From Serinicoccus kebangsaanensis (GTDB lineage Bacteria; Actinomycetota; Actinomycetes; Actinomycetales; Dermatophilaceae): a stretch of DNA of 64,000 nucleotides. The notes below the pieces were generated by a model. That model searched no databases and was not told where the DNA came from. It worked only from the letters and a program-made list of their open reading frames with translations. Position numbers and translations under genes: made by a program. This document shows positions 1-7,364 of the stretch, one piece after another. The DNA is taken from assembly GCF_008919445.1 (NCBI RefSeq), contig NZ_VSLG01000016.1, positions 1 through 64,000 on the forward strand. The letters are read 5' to 3'. Positions within the stretch are counted from its first letter, which is position 1; each line of letters begins with the position of its first letter.

Positions 1-187
1 TCCGGGGCTCGGCCGCGTCGACCACCGACCCCTTGGCCGGTCGCTGGTACACCGGAGGCCCGGACGCAGCCAGCGCCCTCTTCACAGTGTTCTTCGAGCA
101 CCCCATCACCCGCGCGATCGCCTTGATCGGCATGCCCTCCGACCGGTGCAACCGGCGAACCTTCGCCCAGTCCTCCACGTTCAACAC
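1..187 (-). CDS. istA: IS21-family transposase IstA, 5' part (runs off the left edge)
   Basis: Only the first 62 codons are in the window. GTG at 187 is chosen as start because an AGGAGG lies six bases before it (199-194). The protein begins VLNVEDWAKVRRLHRSEG, followed by AIARVMGCSKNTVKRAL, the N-terminal helix-turn-helix typical of IstA, the DDE transposase of IS21 elements. The catalytic core and the partner ATPase gene istB would lie outside the window. An IS3 copy inserted 46 bases upstream separates the gene from the IS21 terminus at 2947, so its native promoter is probably cut off. Family assignment rests on this short N-terminus and on the IS21-like end at 2947. Confidence 0.72.
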   Translation of the reverse strand, partial: MLNVEDWAKVRRLHRSEGMPIKAIARVMGCSKNTVKRALAASGPPVYQRPAKGSVVDAAEPR

Positions 188-1224
188 CCGCTTCCTCCTG
201 TCCTCGTCGACGAGGACAGGATCTCGGCAGGGGTGAACCGCCCCGGCAAGTCCGGAGACTTTCTAGTTTGAGACTCCAGCGATCGCTGGGTCTGGTGGTG
301 AGCGTAGTGCGCCTGCTCTGCCTCGGCGGGAGTGAGGTCGTCGCAGTACTCGTGGGGGCGGCGGTGGTTGTACCAGTCGACCCACTCGGCGGTGGCGAGC
401 TCGAGGTCGTCGAGGCCCTTCCACGGGCGGTGCTTCTTGATCAGTTCGGTCTTGTAGAGCCTGATGATCGATTCGGCCAGGGCGTTGTCATACGACGATC
501 CGACTGCCCCGGTTGAGGGCTTGATCCCAGCGGTGTCGAGCTTCTCGGAGTAGGCCACCGAGAGGTACTGGCTGCCGTGATCGTGATGAGCGATCAGCCC
601 GGCCAGGTCCCGGCCATCGCGGCCGCGGACCCAGATCCCCTGCGCGACCGCGTCCACGACGAGTTGGCTGGCCATCGTGGTCGCTACCGACCAGCCGAGG
701 ATCCGTCGAGCGTAGGCATCGATGACGAACGCGGTGTAGCACCAGCCCGACCACGTCGAGCAGTAGGTGAAGTCCGCGACCCACAGACGGTCGGGTGCCA
801 GGGGTGCGAAGTTGCGCTCGACCAGATCCAACGGCTTCGCCGTCCGCGGGTCGCTGATCGTGGTCTTCTTGACCTTCCCCCGGATCGCTCCGACCAGCCC
901 AAGGTCGCCCATCAGCCGTTCCACGGTGCACCGCGCGATCGGCAGCGCGTCGGCCGGGCGTTCACGGTTCAGCGTCAGCCAGACCTTCCGGGCGCCGTAG
1001 ACGCCGTAGTTCGACGCATGGACCGCCGCGATCTTGGGCTTGAGCTCTTCGTCACGCAGCTCGCGCGCGGTCGGTCTGCGTCCGCGGTGTTCGTAGTAGG
1101 TCGCAGGGGCGATCTTGACGCCGAGCTCGGTGAGCCCGGCGCAGATCGACTCGACACCCCAGCGCAGACCCTGCCCGTCGGCGTCCTCGTGGCGTTCACC
1201 GACGTGCTCGTCGATGTAGCGCAC
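181..1224 (-). CDS. IS3-family transposase OrfB (DDE), separated from OrfA
   Basis: Catalytic subunit of an IS3 transposase with an rve-type integrase core. The acidic residues are visible in VADFTY (first D), HHDHGSQY (second D) and NALAESI (E), with HTH_21-like sequence (YGARKVWLTL) before them. The GTG at 1224 is not a true start: in an intact element this frame is reached from orfA by a -1 frameshift, and the IS110 insertion begins about nine bases upstream. No stop lies inside the element, so the frame crosses the terminal repeat at 234-260 and ends at 181 in flanking IS21 DNA, adding a short foreign tail. Probably non-functional. Confidence 0.88.
   Translation of the reverse strand: MRYIDEHVGERHEDADGQGLRWGVESICAGLTELGVKIAPATYYEHRGRRPTARELRDEELKPKIAAVHASNYGVYGARKVWLTLNRERPADALPIARCTVERLMGDLGLVGAIRGKVKKTTISDPRTAKPLDLVERNFAPLAPDRLWVADFTYCSTWSGWCYTAFVIDAYARRILGWSVATTMASQLVVDAVAQGIWVRGRDGRDLAGLIAHHDHGSQYLSVAYSEKLDTAGIKPSTGAVGSSYDNALAESIIRLYKTELIKKHRPWKGLDDLELATAEWVDWYNHRRPHEYCDDLTPAEAEQAHYAHHQTQRSLESQTRKSPDLPGRFTPAEILSSSTRTGGSGC
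234..260 (+). repeat. IS3 terminal inverted repeat, orfB end
   Basis: 27 bp, 26 of 27 matching the inverse of 2871-2897. The orfB reading frame passes through it (residues KSPDLPGRF). Confidence 0.9.
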
Positions 1225-1279
1225 GATCAGCGCAGTGGCCGGTCGAGTTCGGCGATGCTCCTATGTCAAGGCCGGCGTC

Positions 1280-2323
1280 TCAGGCAGCCTGCTGGATGTG
1301 TGCGGAGGCTGGGATCTGGTCGGCGCGCAGAGCGGAGTAGATGGCGTCGGAGAGTCTTCGACGCAGCAGTCGCAGAGCGGCGACGCGGTCCTTGCCGCGG
1401 GCTTCGGCCTTGGCCAGGTAGGCCCGGCCGGGTCCGACGCCGCGCGCCTGGGTGAGGGCGATCATGTGCAGGGCGTAGTTCATCTGACGGTTGCCGCCGC
1501 GGTTGAGGCGGACTTTGCCGGCCGAGGCGCCGGACCACACCGGCACGGGCGCGGTGCCGGTGAACCGGGCGAAGGCGTCCTTGTCCCGGAACCGGTGGAC
1601 ACCGGCAGTCTCGCCGATGATGACCGCGGCAGAGAACACGCCGCAGCCGGGCAGCGACAGCAGCGTCGGTGCTTGGTCCGCCACCAGGATCTTGAGCTCC
1701 TTCTCGATGTCCTTGATCTCCTCGCTGAGGTCAGCGATCCGGACCAGGAGCTTGCGTGCCAGGCGGACGACGATGCCGTCCCGGGTGTCGAGGAAGGCCT
1801 CGACGCGGGCCCGGGTGTTGGCCTGACGCAGGCTGCGGGACGGCAGCGACAGATCGGGGTCCAGCTCGTGCAGCTGCCAACGCAGCTGGCAGCACGCGCG
1901 GGTGCGCTGCATGACCAGGTCACGGCGGTAGTCGGACAGCAGCTTGACCTGACGGGCGGGGCCGTCGAGCTCAGCGACCGGCAATCCTGGGTGACGCAAC
2001 GCAGCCACAGCGACGGCCTCGGCGTCGATCGGGTCGGACTTGCCCGGTGTCCGCGCCCCGCGGCGCGCACCGGCCATCAGCCGGGTCGGAACCCGCACCA
2101 CCCGCTGGCCGGCCCGCAGGAGGTCGCCCTCCAGTCTGCGGGTCAGGTGCCGGCAGTCTTCCAGGGCGAAGGTGACGTCCTCGAACTGTGCCGCCCAGGT
2201 CAGCAGCTGCAGGTGCCCGTCGGTGTTGGCGCGCAGCGTGCACCCGCCCAGGCGTCGGCCGACGTCGTCGACGGCGACGAAGGTGTGGGTGCGTTTGTGG
2301 GAGTCGGTGCCGATCATCACCAT
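1280..2323 (-). CDS. IS110-family transposase (DEDD recombinase)
   Basis: 347 aa, the normal length for the family. The N-terminal RuvC-like DEDD domain shows D in IGTDSHKRTHT (about residue 6), E in FALEDCRHL and D in KSDPIDAEAV. The C-terminal Tnp_20 domain carries LLSLPGCGVFSAAVIIGE and the region FTGTAPVPVWSG with its conserved serine, then RLNRGGNRQMN. IS110 recombinases act with a bridge RNA encoded in the element's non-coding end. The frame is intact, so this innermost and presumably most recent element may still be active. ATG at 2323 follows a GGAGG (on the minus strand). Confidence 0.92.
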   Translation of the reverse strand: MVMIGTDSHKRTHTFVAVDDVGRRLGGCTLRANTDGHLQLLTWAAQFEDVTFALEDCRHLTRRLEGDLLRAGQRVVRVPTRLMAGARRGARTPGKSDPIDAEAVAVAALRHPGLPVAELDGPARQVKLLSDYRRDLVMQRTRACCQLRWQLHELDPDLSLPSRSLRQANTRARVEAFLDTRDGIVVRLARKLLVRIADLSEEIKDIEKELKILVADQAPTLLSLPGCGVFSAAVIIGETAGVHRFRDKDAFARFTGTAPVPVWSGASAGKVRLNRGGNRQMNYALHMIALTQARGVGPGRAYLAKAEARGKDRVAALRLLRRRLSDAIYSALRADQIPASAHIQQAA

Positions 2324-2530
2324 GGCGGTGGACCTCCTGGTCGATACTGGGATGGACGTCCTGGTCGCCGGGTGCGGCGGGCACGCCTCAATCCAGCCCG
2401 GAGCAGGCTCCTATCAAGCCACGTCACGCCCGACGGCCAGGGCGTCCGGCCGAGCCGCACATCGGACGAGCAGCCAACGACGGGTCTCCGCCGCAGCAGC
2501 GAAAAAAGGAGCGAACCCGACCGGACCCCA
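2324..2530 (-). ncRNA. candidate IS110 bridge RNA region
   Basis: This is the 207-bp non-coding left end between the element tip and the transposase ATG. IS110-group elements encode a structured bridge RNA here whose loops pair with donor and target DNA. I see a T-run (about 2506-2501 on the minus strand) and several GC-rich inverted segments but did not fold the RNA or locate guide loops. The call rests on position and element architecture only. Confidence 0.35.
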
Positions 2531-2845
2531 TCAGCGTGCCATTGACACGAAGAAACTCGTGGCCGCCTTCAGGATCGCGTTGGCGCGCTTCAATTCGGCG
2601 TTCTCCCGCTTGAGCCGCTTCAGCTCCGCCGACTCCTCGGTCGTCATCCCGGGCCGCTGGCCGGCATCGACCTCGGCCTGGCGGTACCACTTCCGAACCG
2701 TTTCCGGTGTGCCGACACCGAGCAACTCGGCGACCCTACTCATCGCTGCCCACTCCGACTCGTGATCGGGCCGGATCTCGGTGACCATCCGGACCGCGCG
2801 ATCCCGCAGCTCGGCCGGGTACCTCTTCGACGTACTTCCTGACAT
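2531..2845 (-). CDS. IS3-family transposase OrfA (HTH, leucine zipper)
   Basis: 104 aa. An N-terminal helix-turn-helix (YPAELRDRAVRMV ... VGTPETVRKWYRQ) is followed by a leucine-zipper stretch (ESAELKRLKRENAELKR) and the usual NAILKAATSFF end. OrfA binds the element's ends and is the N-terminal part of the OrfAB transposase made by -1 frameshifting. The TGA at 2533-2531 is the natural stop: IS110 inserted in the orfA/orfB overlap without changing it. ATG at 2845 lies 26 bases inside the inverted repeat. Confidence 0.88.
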   Translation of the reverse strand: MSGSTSKRYPAELRDRAVRMVTEIRPDHESEWAAMSRVAELLGVGTPETVRKWYRQAEVDAGQRPGMTTEESAELKRLKRENAELKRANAILKAATSFFVSMAR

Positions 2846-2870
2846 GACTCCATCCTTCCCAAGGAACGGA

Positions 2871-2897
2871 GTCTCCGGACTCGCCGGGGCGGTTCAG
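2871..2897 (-). repeat. IS3 terminal inverted repeat, orfA end
   Basis: 27 bp, the inverse of 234-260 with one mismatch. GGG follows at 2898-2900. Confidence 0.9.
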
Positions 2898-2947
2898 GGT
2901 CAGGTTTCACCTGCGGTCAGGGGGTCAGTTTTTACGTGCCGTCGACA

Positions 2948-3087
2948 AGCTGGCATTCCCTTGATGCCAGTGGCACTGCGGGCGCGTCCGCGATGGATCA
3001 CGGGCGGCCGCCTACCGGAACTCAAAACTCATCGTGTCCTCCGCACGCCCCCTTTTGACTAGGCCAAAGACGTGACAAGGTGCACGC
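2948..3087. other. junction between IS nest and kinase island
   Basis: Non-coding. A hairpin CTGGCAT/ATGCCAG (2950-2956 and 2964-2970, 7-base loop) sits 3 bp outside the IS21 tip. The rest has no recognised feature. GC falls towards the kinase gene. Confidence 0.5.
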
Positions 3088-3927
3088 ATGCCAGATCTCT
3101 TAGAAGACGCGTGCAGATTGCTCGGCGTGTCTGTCGTACGGCCCCTCATTGACGGGGGGCAGAAGCAAGTCCACGTTGTCGCCGATCCGTTCGGGCACTG
3201 GCATGTCCTCAAACTGATCGACCTCCGCGCGGCGGCCGACCCAGCCGCGCTGGAACGGGCGAGAAGGGAGGTTGCGCTCCTCGGCAACTTGGACCACCCG
3301 AACGTCGTGAAGGTGTCCTCAGCCTTTGTGGAGATCGGGACCCCGGTGACGGCGGTGTGCTGGTTGGAGGAGTTCCTGAATGGTCAGGATCTACGCTATG
3401 CGGGCTCGCGCTGGGGCGCCGAGGAACTGCTGGCGTTAGGTAAAGACGTCTCTGCGGGGCTGGGAGAACTTCACCGCAACCGTGTGATCCACCGCGACCT
3501 GAGTCCGGGCAACATACAACTCCTCAGCGATAATCGGTTTGTCGTCATGGATCCTGGCTTTGCGAAGCACACGCTGAGAAGCGGTCTTACAGTAGGCGGG
3601 CAGCCAGGTACTCCAGGATTCATGACACCCGAACACCTCCAGAGCTACTCAGGAGCCCCAACGGCAGCGTCGGACGTCTTTGGATGTGCCGCATTGGTGT
3701 ACTACGCCGCCACTGGTTCCTCTCCGGTCCCGTACAAGGGCGATGACGTCGACTATATGCGTCGTTTGCGCGGAGCCACCCACATACCACTTAGCGCTGC
3801 ACGACCGGACTTAGAGTCCGGTTTCGTTGCTGTTGTCGAGCGAGCCTTGCATCCGCAACCGGCCCGTCGATACAGAAACGGAGCAGCGCTCAGATCCGCA
3901 TTGGAAGAGGCTGAGTTGCTTTGGTAA
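3088..3927 (+). CDS. minimal Ser/Thr protein-kinase-like protein with DPG loop
   Basis: 279 aa, essentially only a kinase domain, with no membrane segment, PASTA or other sensor domain. Visible kinase features: Lys42 in HVLKLIDL, Glu61 in the C-helix, the catalytic loop HRDLSPGN (H135, D137, N142), the metal-binding motif as DPG (155-157) instead of DFG, a TPEH sequence near 180 in place of APE, and D196 in SDVFG. The glycine loop is degenerate (DGGQKQV, 22-28). Catalytic Lys, HRD Asp, Asn and metal Asp are all present, so activity is plausible. The stop overlaps the TTG start of the next gene. Lower GC and the absence of the local GTATGC word mark the region as foreign. Substrate unknown. 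Confidence 0.82.
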   Translation: MPDLLEDACRLLGVSVVRPLIDGGQKQVHVVADPFGHWHVLKLIDLRAAADPAALERARREVALLGNLDHPNVVKVSSAFVEIGTPVTAVCWLEEFLNGQDLRYAGSRWGAEELLALGKDVSAGLGELHRNRVIHRDLSPGNIQLLSDNRFVVMDPGFAKHTLRSGLTVGGQPGTPGFMTPEHLQSYSGAPTAASDVFGCAALVYYAATGSSPVPYKGDDVDYMRRLRGATHIPLSAARPDLESGFVAVVERALHPQPARRYRNGAALRSALEEAELLW

Positions 3928-5069
3928 CCTTTCTGCAGGACACTGCACGGAACAATCTGATCTCGTGGACGGCGGAGGCGGTCCGCCTAGGCTTTGCGCG
4001 AGGGGCGATGTTGTCGCCTTTCTCCTCGCCACGCGAAGGAAACGGGTTCAAGCGATCAGCAATAGATACGTCTGAGTCGATCCGGACTGCTGGCGGGGAG
4101 TTCTGGTTCGATCCGATGACACACGCCCTTAACATGCCTAGGGCGGGGGACTTTCGGTTTTATGACGGATGGCCTCTTTGGAGCGATACTCGTGGAGAAT
4201 TAGTAACGGCTGAGCACCAGCGAGACCATATAAGGCGCGTCTACGATATCCAGGATGGCCTGGGCTCGCCGCGACTGGCACCGACAGTCTTGGTTTCATA
4301 CCCGGATACGCCGCAGAGTCAGTTGGCGCTCATTCTCGCGGGCGAGGCGGTTACCGAGGATGGAGGCGCATGGGTTGCCATTGCGGGCGACCAGCAATTT
4401 TGGACGTCCGGAGCCGAGTTGGATGCGCATATTGGCGCTCTTGACCAATTGGAGCCCGGCGGCTGGCTTCTGACAGTCTCCCGCTCGGATAACGCAATGC
4501 CTCCCGGCGCCACGTCCGACGAGATTTACGGGCTTATGCGAAGCGTCTACGCTTTGAGTAGGGACAGGCCGGTGCGAGTTGCTTTCGGGGACTTGAGCGC
4601 CCTCCCAGCGATCGCGGCCGGTGCAGAAAGTCTCGGCACCGGTTGGGATATGAGGCAACGCATATGCGCCTATCAAGACTTTGAGGAGCGCCTAGGCGAT
4701 GCGCCGGGAGGAGGCTGGTATCAGCGCCCCACCCTTGCGGGGCTTCTGGGAGGGCTTGCACAAGGCGAGTACCGGGTGCTCCAATCAGAGGATCCAGAGA
4801 GGGCCCGAGCTTTGACCCCAGGCACAATTGGGCCACGGCCGGGCCAGGCCTTTATGCACCACGCCTCAGTGCTTGCTGGCGTTATCTCGGAACTCGCGCC
4901 ACTCCAAGACCGGGATCGCGTCGAGGCGCTCAGAGCGCGCTACGTCGCTGCGGGGGCGGAGTGGCCCGAAGTGCAGCGAATTACTCATACGCGCCTAGGC
5001 TACGCCAATTGGATACAACCGCTACTCGCCGGCGTGGACGCCTTCATGGCTGCCGAGGGCTGGGTCTGA
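3921..5069 (+). CDS. unknown protein coupled to the kinase; possible TIM-barrel fold
   Basis: 382 aa from a TTG at 3921 that overlaps the kinase stop by seven bases, so translation is probably coupled; no separate ribosome-binding site is seen. I do not recognise the family. Alternating hydrophobic strands and helices (GEFWFDPMTHAL, PTVLVSYPD, AWVAIAGDQQFW, GWLLTVSRSD, PVRVAFGDLSALPAIAAGA, then LGTGWDMRQRICAY) suggest a beta/alpha barrel of the kind found in tRNA-guanine-transglycosylase-like proteins. That is a structural guess. There is no signal peptide or membrane helix. Its last 48 bases overlap the 3' end of the convergent gene at 5022. It may be a substrate or effector of the kinase. 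Confidence 0.7.
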   Translation: MVTFLQDTARNNLISWTAEAVRLGFARGAMLSPFSSPREGNGFKRSAIDTSESIRTAGGEFWFDPMTHALNMPRAGDFRFYDGWPLWSDTRGELVTAEHQRDHIRRVYDIQDGLGSPRLAPTVLVSYPDTPQSQLALILAGEAVTEDGGAWVAIAGDQQFWTSGAELDAHIGALDQLEPGGWLLTVSRSDNAMPPGATSDEIYGLMRSVYALSRDRPVRVAFGDLSALPAIAAGAESLGTGWDMRQRICAYQDFEERLGDAPGGGWYQRPTLAGLLGGLAQGEYRVLQSEDPERARALTPGTIGPRPGQAFMHHASVLAGVISELAPLQDRDRVEALRARYVAAGAEWPEVQRITHTRLGYANWIQPLLAGVDAFMAAEGWV

Positions 5070-5759
5070 TCCGATAGCCGCAAACAGATGTTCGAAACCT
5101 CGTAGCCGCTGAGGGAACTTCTGCTTGCGGGGTTGGGGTTTCAGCAGCCAGCCACTGGGCAGGTAGAGTCCCGCTCCCTCATGCTCTAGTGCTTCTTGGG
5201 CGCGCAGAGTAGCGGTTTGTCCTAACTGCCCCATAACCACGATATAGTTATCTGCCCAGGTTCGATAGGAGCGACCCTGCCGGATGGCGCGTTGCCATCC
5301 AGTTACTTTGGCCTCGATCGCGTATAGTGTGCCGGTCGGACTGAATGCTGGGTGCCGCACGAGGGAGCCTCCGTCAGTAAATTGAATCGCGCCTGATCTC
5401 GTCAATCGAGACAAAACCGAGTCGATGTCCGCGGTTTGCCATGCGAGTCTATTCGCAACGGTCCTCACTGACAGGGGTCTGTGAGGCATCAACACTGACA
5501 GGACTGTGCAATCAATCTCTGATAAGACGGGGGGAACTCCTGATGCCATCCTTGAGGCCAACCATTGACCGCAGTTGACCGCTGCGACAAAGTCAGGCAA
5601 GCCGAGCGGGCTTGGCATCTCTGGGACGAGGAGGATGTGTTTCGCACCCGGGAGGGCGGTCGCGACCTTGCGCACGAATGGGTGAAGCGAGCGCTCGTCG
5701 ATTGGTTCGAAGCGTCTACCGCCTAGGGACGTGCTCGGGCGGACTACTTGCAGTGTCAT
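5022..5759 (-). CDS. PD-(D/E)xK nuclease-like protein with inserted winged helix
   Basis: 245 aa from ATG 5759; the frame stays open upstream to 5966, but that extension (Pro/Cys-rich) looks non-coding. Glu47 and Asp56 in PEMPSPLGLPDFVA, then Glu149-x-Lys151 in LYAIEAKV followed by W155, Q161, Y165 and D170, match the spacing of restriction-endonuclease-fold nucleases. Between them, about residues 78-130 look like a winged helix (LSEIDCTVLSVL ... VRTVANRLAWQ ... VLSRLTRSGAI). Such proteins act on DNA or RNA; the target here is unknown. It is convergent with the kinase pair and overlaps it by 48 bases. Low GC like its neighbours. Confidence 0.65.
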   Translation of the reverse strand: MTLQVVRPSTSLGGRRFEPIDERSLHPFVRKVATALPGAKHILLVPEMPSPLGLPDFVAAVNCGQWLASRMASGVPPVLSEIDCTVLSVLMPHRPLSVRTVANRLAWQTADIDSVLSRLTRSGAIQFTDGGSLVRHPAFSPTGTLYAIEAKVTGWQRAIRQGRSYRTWADNYIVVMGQLGQTATLRAQEALEHEGAGLYLPSGWLLKPQPRKQKFPQRLRGFEHLFAAIGSDPALGSHEGVHAGE

Positions 5760-6165
5760 GCTGACGTGCACGCAAGTGCGATCAGTGACGGTGGTGTCGG
5801 CATGGGCAACGTGGACATTGCACCATTGTGCGCCAGGGGGTTTCCTGTTGGCGCAGGGCGGCTGGAGCTCCCACGTTCGTGCCGGAGACGTTGTCGGTTC
5901 GCTCAACCTCCCACAACTCCGCGCGGGTCTCTTAGGTGACGGCCACGACGACGGGGACTGCTGCACGCACAGGTGACATCTATTCTGTGGTGCCGAACCC
6001 GGTATCCGCTCATCGGCATGAGCGGTCTGTCACGACCCTGGGACGTCCTGACTGCCAAAGCACTGAGAGAGGACCTCCGAGTTTCGGGCCGGGGGAGCGC
6101 CGTGTTACCGGCTATTTGTCGATGGGGAGATCACGGGTCCGGCATGGGCCTCTCTGCGAGAGAAC
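5760..6165. other. non-coding end of the foreign island
   Basis: No convincing gene in 406 bp. Two inverted repeats: TGCGCCA/TGGCGCA (5829-5835, 5849-5855), upstream of the nuclease-like gene and possibly an operator, and CCGCTCAT/ATGAGCGG with a 4-base loop (6006-6025). No tRNA or attachment-site-like direct repeat was seen. The first GTATGC/GCATAC word of the window appears just to the right, near 6198. Confidence 0.5.
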
Positions 6166-7281
6166 TCAGCCGAGCACGTCCGCGACGGTGACGGACGGCA
6201 TACCGAACGCGTCACCGACCGCCGGGTAGGTGAGCTGCCCGGCGTGCGTGTTCAGACCGAGTGCCAGTGACGGGTTGTCCGTCAGCGCGGCGCGCCAGCC
6301 CTTCTCGGCGAGCTGCACGGCATACGGCAGGGTCGCGTTGGTCAGCGCCCACGTCGAGGTGTGGGGCACGGCGCCGGGCATGTTGGCGACGCAGTAGTAG
6401 AGCGAGTTGTGCACGGGGAAGGTCGGGTCGGCGTGCGTGGTGGGGCGGGAGCCCTCGAAGCAGCCACCCTGGTCGATCGCGACGTCGACGAGCACCGACC
6501 CCGGCTTCATCGTGGCCACCATGTCGTCGGTCACCAGCTTCGGTGCCTTCGCGCCGGGGATGAGCACCGTGCCGATGACCATGTCGGCCTCCGGCACCAG
6601 CTCGGTGATGGTGAGGTTGTTGGAGGCCAGCTGCTTGACCTGGTTGTCGAACCGCCAGAAGAGGGTGCGCAGCTTGTCCAGGTCGGTGTCCAGGATGGTG
6701 ACGTCGGCACCCATGCCGAGCGCGATGTTGGCGGCGTTCTGCCCCGCGACCCCACCGCCGAGCACCAGCACCTTGGCGTTCGCGACGCCACCGATGCCGC
6801 CCATGAGCACGCCACGACCACCCTGCGCCTTCATCATCGTGTGCGCCCCCACCTGCGGAGCCAAGCACCCGGCGACCTCGGACATCGGATAGAGCAGCGG
6901 CAGCATCCCGCTCGGCAGCTGCACCGTCTCGTAGGCGATTGCCGTCGTGCGTGCCTCGATCAGCCGTCGCGTCAGCGGCTCGTCCGCCGCGAGGTGCAGG
7001 TAGGTGAAGAGGGTCAGGTCCTCCCGGAGATAGGCATACTCGCTCTCGATCGGCTCCTTGACCTTGAGCACCATCTCGCCGGCCGCCCAGGTGGCGTCCG
7101 GCCCGTCGACGATGGTCGCGCCCTGCGCGACATACTCCTCGTCGCTGATCGACGAGCCGATCCCCGCCCCCTGCTGCACGAAGACCTCGTGCCCCCGCCG
7201 CACCAGCTCGTGCACCCCGACAGGGGTGATGGCCACGCGGAACTCGTTGTTCTTGACCTCGGTCGGCACGGCGATCTTCAT
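6166..7281 (-). CDS. ald: alanine dehydrogenase
   Basis: 371 aa, the standard length of L-alanine dehydrogenase, which interconverts L-alanine and pyruvate plus ammonium with NAD. The known substrate residues are at their usual positions: Arg15 (NNEFRVAITP), Lys75 (KVKEP) and His96 (TYLHLA). The NAD-binding glycine motif is VLGGGVAGQNAA, and VDVAIDQGGCFEG carries the conserved Asp. ATG 7281 (MKIAVPTEV) is chosen over an upstream in-frame start; a CATAGT box six bases before it suggests a leaderless transcript. First gene with native sequence character after the island. Confidence 0.96.
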   Translation of the reverse strand: MKIAVPTEVKNNEFRVAITPVGVHELVRRGHEVFVQQGAGIGSSISDEEYVAQGATIVDGPDATWAAGEMVLKVKEPIESEYAYLREDLTLFTYLHLAADEPLTRRLIEARTTAIAYETVQLPSGMLPLLYPMSEVAGCLAPQVGAHTMMKAQGGRGVLMGGIGGVANAKVLVLGGGVAGQNAANIALGMGADVTILDTDLDKLRTLFWRFDNQVKQLASNNLTITELVPEADMVIGTVLIPGAKAPKLVTDDMVATMKPGSVLVDVAIDQGGCFEGSRPTTHADPTFPVHNSLYYCVANMPGAVPHTSTWALTNATLPYAVQLAEKGWRAALTDNPSLALGLNTHAGQLTYPAVGDAFGMPSVTVADVLG

Positions 7282-7364
7282 GGCCCCACTATGCCGTCCC
7301 TGCTCGACGCACAACACCCCTCCCTCAGGTCGCCGCGTCCCGCCACGGCACCTACTGTCGCCTC

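Follow-up and report, generated by a model that had tools for sequence, protein, structure and literature searches.

A recurrent kinase, TGT-like and PD-(D/E)xK gene trio as a candidate mobile defence module of Actinomycetota

In Serinicoccus kebangsaanensis, the first 64,000 nucleotides (nt) of contig NZ_VSLG01000016.1, hereafter the window, carry near their left end a three-gene island (3088..5759) that encodes a predicted Ser/Thr protein kinase (gene 1), a probable remote relative of the tRNA-guanine transglycosylase (TGT)/DpdA superfamily (gene 2), and a predicted nuclease of the PD-(D/E)xK type (gene 3). The same order and orientation, that is, kinase, gene 2, and convergent nuclease, recur at each of the 10 distinct loci studied closely, the hosts of which belong to several genera of Actinomycetes and, in one case, to a genome outside that class, and the trios fall into two deep branches. 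Our preferred reading, to which we assign a probability of about 0.6, is that the island represents one copy of a mobile system with which Actinomycetota would counter invaders (phages or plasmids), and in which a kinase-gated nuclease would operate together with a TGT-fold recogniser. Defence in some form is the likely role of the trio on the grounds of its sequences and settings. The first-pass annotation, made from the letters of the window, had proposed an undescribed defence or conflict system; the recurrence of the trio, its mobile or defence-rich settings, and the lack of any PADLOC model for genes 2 and 3 speak for that proposal, while a pathway that joins kinase, effector, and nuclease is something we infer.

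The immune repertoire of Actinomycetota is, to our knowledge, thinly explored, and the trio provides a well-delimited candidate defence system that can be cloned in one piece. With it, the TGT superfamily would also reach into a context linked to a kinase, in which the fold may be a sensor and not a base exchanger. As a multi-gene, nucleic-acid-directed defence module the trio would be known in kind, with a lesser chance that it represents a new class.

Recurrence and joint divergence of the trio

Gene 1 occupies 3088..3927 on the plus strand (279 amino acids, aa), gene 2 follows on the same strand at 3921..5069 (382 aa, TTG start), and gene 3 lies on the minus strand at 5022..5759 (245 aa from an ATG). 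The open reading frames (ORFs) of the island are thus present as first annotated, together with the 48 nt (5022..5069) over which genes 2 and 3 overlap tail to tail, and the 7-nt overlap between the stop of gene 1 and the start of gene 2 (3921..3927) suggests that these two genes are translationally coupled. Genes 1 and 2 overlap in nine of the 10 loci, by 20 nt in L040 and by 4 nt in L003, L004, L005, L006, L008, and L042, as well as in L011 if the GTG at 2649 is the start; the tenth, L041, has an 8-nt gap. Genes 2 and 3 likewise overlap tail to tail in nine loci, the eight relatives of the window doing so by 4–77 nt, and are separated by a 2-nt gap in L011.

Branch A comprises seven loci including the window, and branch B comprises three (L040, L041, and L042). 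Within the former, relatives of gene 2 with 64–68% identity are found in Nocardioides hwasunensis (L003), Leekyejoonella antrihumi (L004), Actinokineospora spheciospongiae (L005), and L006/L009, a relative with 42% identity in L011/L014 (genome G639, from the same phylum as the window and another class), and one with 30% identity on a plasmid of Dietzia kunjamensis (L008). Branch B was discovered by a profile of the nuclease, which matched genome G238 (5.4e-13), where a trio at L040:8772-12023 consists of a kinase, a 463-aa counterpart of gene 2, and a convergent nuclease; this counterpart led to the trios on Arthrobacter sp. FB24 plasmid 3 (L041) and Kineococcus radiotolerans plasmid pKRAD01 (L042). 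Pairwise distances of the three proteins are correlated over the 10 loci (r = 0.94–0.99; Mantel p = 0.0002, the floor of 5000 permutations) and within branch A alone (r = 0.92–0.99; p = 0.002–0.003), which shows the three predicted proteins to have diverged jointly. Given that all 10 loci carry the trio, a chance neighbourhood is rejected, and the co-occurrence of kinase and nuclease homologues with the 382-aa protein, which had been suggested as a check, is borne out with both partners at all 10 loci.

Single members found elsewhere did not lead to further trios. The nuclease profile matched 37 of 148 genomes at E 0.001, namely the window's own, G238, and 35 weaker ones, nearly all of which are confined to the winged helix by their matched range; at 18 of these 35 weaker loci (L018–L035, 1.9–3.3 kilobases (kb) each), profile searches recovered neither kinase nor gene 2. 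Kinases with 31–34% identity occur in three other genomes of 118, and neither gene 2 nor the nuclease was found by profile search in their surroundings (2.6–3.8 kb). A gene 2 match in genome G1070 (E 5e-4) was dropped, as the 3.3-kb region around it (L015) held none of genes 1, 2, and 3 when searched with the 10-row profiles at E 0.01. Three scans of viral contigs gave no confirmed relative, and a search of phage records with gene 1 gave three remote kinases.

The kinase and the predicted nuclease

Gene 1 matches the Pfam family Pkinase (E 1.2e-23) and carries what is expected of a Ser/Thr kinase: the VAIK Lys K42 (3211-3213), the HRD Asp D137 (3496-3498), and the metal-binding Asp D155, in a DPG that replaces the usual DFG (3550-3552). 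K42, E61, HRD, N142, D155, and G157 are unchanged across all 10 aligned kinases, whereas the branch A kinases have GGQK where a Gly-rich loop is usual. Chains of PknB and PknA are the top solved structures when ranked by the 10-row kinase profile. Gene 1 is accordingly taken as a single-domain Ser/Thr protein kinase with complete catalytic motifs and predicted activity. In the PADLOC library its best model is PDLC04042 of PD-T4-6 (2.5e-38, 258 residues aligned), which is also the best model for the branch B kinase of L040 (4.2e-42). These PD-T4-6 models take in a broad range of kinases, as do the models of PglW, MkoA, and mad6; against NCBIfam, gene 1 reaches 92.6 of 460 bits for MAD6 and 48.8 of 990 bits for PglW, both far under the cut-offs. 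A system already described in PADLOC is rejected as an identity for the trio, since the kinase alone matches and there is no model for genes 2 and 3.

The product of gene 3 shows the residue pattern of PD-(D/E)xK enzymes, consisting of D56 (5592-5594), E149 (5313-5315), K151 (5307-5309), and Q161 (5277-5279), and D56, E149-x-K151, and Q161 are unchanged in all 10 aligned sequences. This pattern was read from the alignment; no library family of the PD-(D/E)xK type in Pfam, NCBIfam, or PADLOC matches gene 3. The DNA-binding domain that had been noted within the protein is confirmed as a winged helix of MarR/TrmB/ArsR-like type (5364..5528, minus strand), which separates the PD Asp from the ExK as an insertion. 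Residues 78–132 match the Pfam model HVO_A0114/TrmB below threshold, Pfam giving winged-helix matches only and all of them sub-threshold, and the 10-row profile finds MarR-type chains in the PDB at E about 5e-5. The nucleases of branches A and B are homologous, judging by a profile-to-profile comparison (probability 99%, E 5.1e-18), and gene 3 is a PD-(D/E)xK protein with a complete catalytic motif split by the winged helix, for which nuclease activity is predicted. In existing records, the protein at L042:8032-8793 is annotated as a BadM/Rrf2 transcriptional regulator, and the nuclease at L041:10275-11108 of Arthrobacter FB24 is visible as an ORF at a place where the PLSDB gene table lists no gene.

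Gene 2 as a probable remote relative of TGT

Searches of Pfam, NCBIfam, PHROGs, and PADLOC gave no match for gene 2, in agreement with its initial description as a protein of no family. Its classification as a housekeeping enzyme is rejected on the same absence of a family match and on its occurrence in two of 97 relatives, one of them the window's own genome. The other half of that description, an unknown barrel-like protein, is replaced here by a more specific one, namely a probable distant member of the TGT/DpdA superfamily.

The assignment comes from profile comparison and from motifs. A joint profile of branches A and B aligned with a TGT profile at a score of 33.0 over 178 collinear columns, from the Q..LG strand through the zinc cysteines, and none of 200 column shuffles scored as high (best, 25.6); branch B alone scored 29.6, again with 0 of 200 shuffles as high, and the known pair of phage DpdA and TGT scored 24.0 in the same set-up. 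In a ranking of 118 single sequences, six of the top seven were TGTs, with one decoy in third place, and the best of nine decoys that we take to have barrel or barrel-like folds stood at rank 16. The TGT set held 14 sequences, that is, E. coli Tgt and the 13 of 25 loci tried (L045–L069) that passed a length and motif filter, L070–L073 being left out; the phage DpdA set drew on 13 loci including that of 9g, of which 12 were used and the unannotated GH32 was left out; and the 92 decoys comprised 91 ORFs of 180–900 aa from three E. coli regions and one barrel ORF of L014. As a side observation, the TGT match is split into two pieces in two actinobacterial genomes, G495 (L070 with L072) and G063 (L071 with L073).

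All three branch B sequences contain CxCxxC followed by His after x16 or x20, to be compared with CxCxxC-x25-H in 11 of the 14 TGTs and with no CxCxxC in any of the 12 phage DpdAs. None of the seven branch A sequences, the window's included, has CxCxxC, the His being kept and the Cys lost, and H313 of the window's protein (4857-4859) may correspond to the region of the zinc-site His of TGT. D64 (4110-4112) is invariant at 10 of 10 loci and falls near the Asp of the DSGGF motif of TGT (E. coli D89), and the position of the TGT nucleophile (E. coli D264) is occupied by Gly or Ser in both branches (G239 in the window); both placements depend on a weak alignment, the latter being made by eye. D89 and D264 are the catalytic Asp pair of the E. 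coli enzyme. In the window's branch, the zinc cysteines seem to be gone and perhaps also the nucleophilic Asp, so that recognition is somewhat likelier than base exchange there. A relation of either branch to phage DpdA was unsupported, with 23 of 60 (branch A) and 31 of 60 (branch B) shuffles scoring as high.

A number of results tell against the TGT assignment and, with it, against the recogniser in our preferred reading. The Pfam TGT model PF01702 is not matched by gene 2 (queried as P0002, six rows of A4, and P0004), and PDB searches with gene 2 returned neither a TGT chain nor any other credible chain. Branch A alone was equalled against TGT by 14 of 200 shuffles, and TGTs do not stand out in its ranking; the gene 2 proteins of the two branches gave a hhalign probability of 0.6% with each other (10 of 200 shuffles as high), and the joint profile one of 11% with TGT. 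The joint profile also presupposes the homology of the branches, which rests on synteny, and owes its signal mostly to branch B, and column shuffling leaves the periodic pattern of a barrel uncontrolled. In the single-sequence ranking, the remaining eight of the 14 TGTs were spread over ranks 9–61.

Genomic settings of the loci

Defence or mobility genes lie near the trio at each of the 10 loci, with evidence of very unequal weight from one locus to another. The settings include three plasmids, a relaxase-bearing element, an integrase-bearing element, surroundings of insertion sequences (IS), and islands of defence genes, and both GC content and neighbours vary from locus to locus. Among the defence-like neighbours are Abi_2/AbiD and HEPN AbiV genes at L005, and a PIN_12 protein and an 819-aa CHAT-domain protein that adjoin the trio at L003:12200-16190, neither of which matches a PADLOC model. 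The contigs of L003 and L005 hold core genes, with no transfer gene recognised nearby.

On the mobile side, L041 is a conjugative MOBP/MPF_T plasmid of Arthrobacter, L042 is the Kineococcus plasmid, on which a NERD-domain protein adjoins the trio, and L008 is a mobilizable MobF plasmid of Dietzia, on which N6_Mtase and M_Eco57I_C pieces flank an IS1634 transposase, the two pieces apparently being one interrupted methylase gene. L009 is surrounded by genes for a TrwC relaxase, Prim-Pol, and a single-stranded DNA-binding protein, and L004 has a DDE_3 transposase on one side and a Mutator-type transposase on the other. L014 looks like an integrative element, having a phage-type integrase (approximately 9 kb off) and a CHC2 primase domain on one side and, on the other, presumed core genes and a tRNA-Ala (L014:11068-11142) directly upstream of the kinase in the trio of G639. 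The notion that this element is bounded by an attachment repeat of the tRNA-Ala was rejected, as no exact repeat of at least 13 nt was found. The neighbours in L040 are an M78 peptidase, a ThiF protein with a weak JAB match, and an NT5C nucleotidase. The island in which they lie (L040:2552-16495) also holds three large ORFs, of 671, 588, and 632 aa, for which Pfam gives no credible match. Two of these, taken by eye for a recombinase (L040:4686-6452) and a transposase (L040:6449-8347), had no Pfam match and were not counted as such, and a 'tRNA-Gly' in L040 was taken as spurious because it lies inside a long ORF.

A proposed kinase-gated defence module and its alternatives

In our preferred reading, the TGT-fold protein of gene 2 would recognise, or modify, a feature of nucleic acid. 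The kinase, co-produced with it, would phosphorylate one of its two partners upon sensed infection, and this phosphorylation would release the nuclease, which the winged helix would place on DNA, with the cutting of the invading (or host) DNA as the result. This wiring is tentative and is unlikely to be right in every detail.

Beyond the points raised for gene 2, the reading has to contend with the rarity of the module and with some ambiguity in its surroundings. The module was found in two of 97 relatives, at least three of 394 genomes of the class (the same number with each of two queries), and at least two of 396 genomes of the phylum, the window's genome being included in each of these counts, and the last two are lower bounds because the first four candidates per genome were scored. 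One of 198 genomes in the class of G639 had it, and the order of G336 gave two among 200 genomes, of which one was a marginal match that was not upheld. Genes 2 and 3 had no match among 50,697 phage records, an absence that is expected of a host-side system and yet proves none. The correlated distances can equally stem from the common descent of the hosts, and the genes read around L014 include none with an evident link to defence.

The best surviving alternative, which we regard as unlikely, resembles restriction-modification: gene 2 would be an active base exchanger that marks self DNA, gene 3 would cut unmarked DNA, and the kinase would only tune the two. The resemblance of gene 2 to the TGT superfamily, the position of D64 near the DSGGF Asp, and a nuclease that is convergent to the putative modifier and equipped with a winged helix-turn-helix are all in keeping with such a scheme. 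A supply of the base is harder to find. The window's genome (G000) has no Pfam-detectable TGT (PF01702), QueC (PF06508) is absent from it and from G238, and in G254, the third genome searched for it, there is one partial match over 57 positions. There is thus no sign of host-made preQ0, and a Dpd-type system fed by the host is unlikely in the window's host, in which Pfam detects neither QueC nor TGT, and in G238, which has no QueC. The Gly or Ser at the nucleophile-aligned position of both branches also argues against exchange activity, within the limits of that weak alignment, and neither DpdB nor DpdC was recognised among the genes read beside the trios, where no model search for them was made. 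A phage-supplied base or a pure binding role for gene 2 is conceivable.

The binding role, carried further, would make the trio a new immune class, in which a TGT fold without base exchange would act as a receptor that binds modified guanine in DNA or tRNA and would signal through a Ser/Thr kinase to a PD-(D/E)xK effector. We hold this to be a long shot. Its candidate ligands include 7-deazaguanines, which many actinophages may introduce by means of a DpdA of their own, an enzyme described as an inserter of preQ0 (PMC6884629). DpdA-like matches were present in 226 phage records, and in four of five DpdA loci from actinophages a QueC-like gene is annotated next to dpdA. DpdA-like genes are carried by phages that infect Mycobacterium, Gordonia, Rhodococcus, and Arthrobacter, and the idea that hosts reuse the TGT fold against DpdA phages is therefore directly testable.

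It is improbable that the trio is a maintenance module of mobile elements in the manner of toxin-antitoxin pairs, with the nuclease as toxin and the kinase and TGT-like protein as antidote. The frequent location on plasmids and other elements and the transcription of the nuclease from its own side would suit it, whereas the three proteins have the size of normal enzymes, two of them with conserved catalytic sites, there is no small antidote, and one copy lies in a chromosomal contig beside Abi genes.

We also give poor odds to abortive infection driven by the kinase in the manner of Stk2 or PD-T4-6, in which the kinase would be the effector, acting on host proteins, and genes 2 and 3 would only sense or regulate. 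Stk2 offers a precedent in the section of a review that treats it (PMC6532042), and the kinase is the sole member of the trio with a PADLOC match, the best being to PD-T4-6; those models, however, match kinases broadly, and a protein that only regulated would not be expected to keep its PD-(D/E)xK site unchanged at 10 loci. A non-defence module for regulation or DNA processing in mobile elements, for example in transfer or DNA-damage control, is very improbable, for the relaxase, primase, or integrase genes near some loci are set against L003 and L005, in contigs of core genes with no recognised transfer gene close by, and against the differences in GC and neighbours among the loci.

Comparison with known systems

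A combination of kinase, TGT-like protein, and PD-(D/E)xK protein was not found described in the full-text literature searched, outside of which subscription papers and preprints lie. The Dpd system is similar in pairing a presumed TGT-superfamily protein with a nuclease in presumed DNA-directed defence; the trio differs in its Ser/Thr kinase, in the probable loss of the nucleophile, and in the lack of a host QueC, and its gene 2 profile has no detectable match to DpdAs, the comparison being with phage DpdAs only. PD-T4-6 and Stk2 have in common with gene 1 that they are Ser/Thr kinases. PD-T4-6 acts as a single gene, unlike the trio kinase, which is followed by genes 2 and 3 at 10 of 10 loci. 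Stk2 is an abortive-infection kinase activated by a phage protein, as summarised in the relevant passage of a review (PMC6532042).

Other parallels concern parts of the trio, each as portrayed in excerpts of the papers cited. PglW of type 2 BREX unites a nuclease and kinases in one protein (PMC12839542) and thus also pairs a nuclease with a Ser/Thr kinase in defence, whereas the trio has separate genes and no PglX, PglZ, or helicase recognised next to it in the window. Partners typical of BREX type 2 or MADS (methyltransferase, PglZ, and ATPase) were likewise not found among the seven window ORFs scanned with Pfam, that is, the trio and four neighbours. A BREX-related system centred on HerA/FtsK contains PglZ, DUF6079, a STAND NTPase, DUF4007, HerA/FtsK, GNAT, and TGT (PMC12839542). 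It shares with the trio a TGT, or in the trio a probable TGT relative, in proposed defence without recognised DpdB or DpdC, and is unlike it in that, of these seven components, the TGT-like part alone is recognised here. GrwAB of Vibrio cholerae performs modification-dependent restriction, with escape mutants located in the DpdA of the phage (PMC12137116). By this description it shares with the trio a possible link to 7-deazaguanine DNA, and it differs in consisting of two genes.

Foreign character and ends of the island

The lower GC content that had been ascribed to the island is evident, the trio having 60.4% GC compared with 72.5% for the remainder of the window. At third codon positions, the GC fraction of the three genes is 0.62–0.66, compared with 0.93 in the alanine dehydrogenase gene (6166..7317, minus strand), the first chromosomal gene to the right, which marks the end of the foreign stretch. 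The word GTATGC is strongly over-represented in the window, with 68 copies where 8.1 are expected (largest shuffle, 17), all confined to 6198-63370. Its absence from the island, noted at first pass, holds for the whole of 1-6197, where approximately seven copies would be expected, and this agrees with the entire left end being foreign; for the trio alone, in which 2.8 copies are expected by density, the absence is a weak sign by itself.

The IS nest reported beside the island is present at 181..2845, left of the trio. Going by Pfam domains and by family names that we partly assume from recall, it consists of an IS3-type orfB (181-1224), an IS110-type transposase gene (1280-2323), and an IS3-type orfA (2531-2845). 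The IS110-type gene thus sits between the two IS3-type reading frames, all three being on the minus strand, with the first base of the contig just before them.

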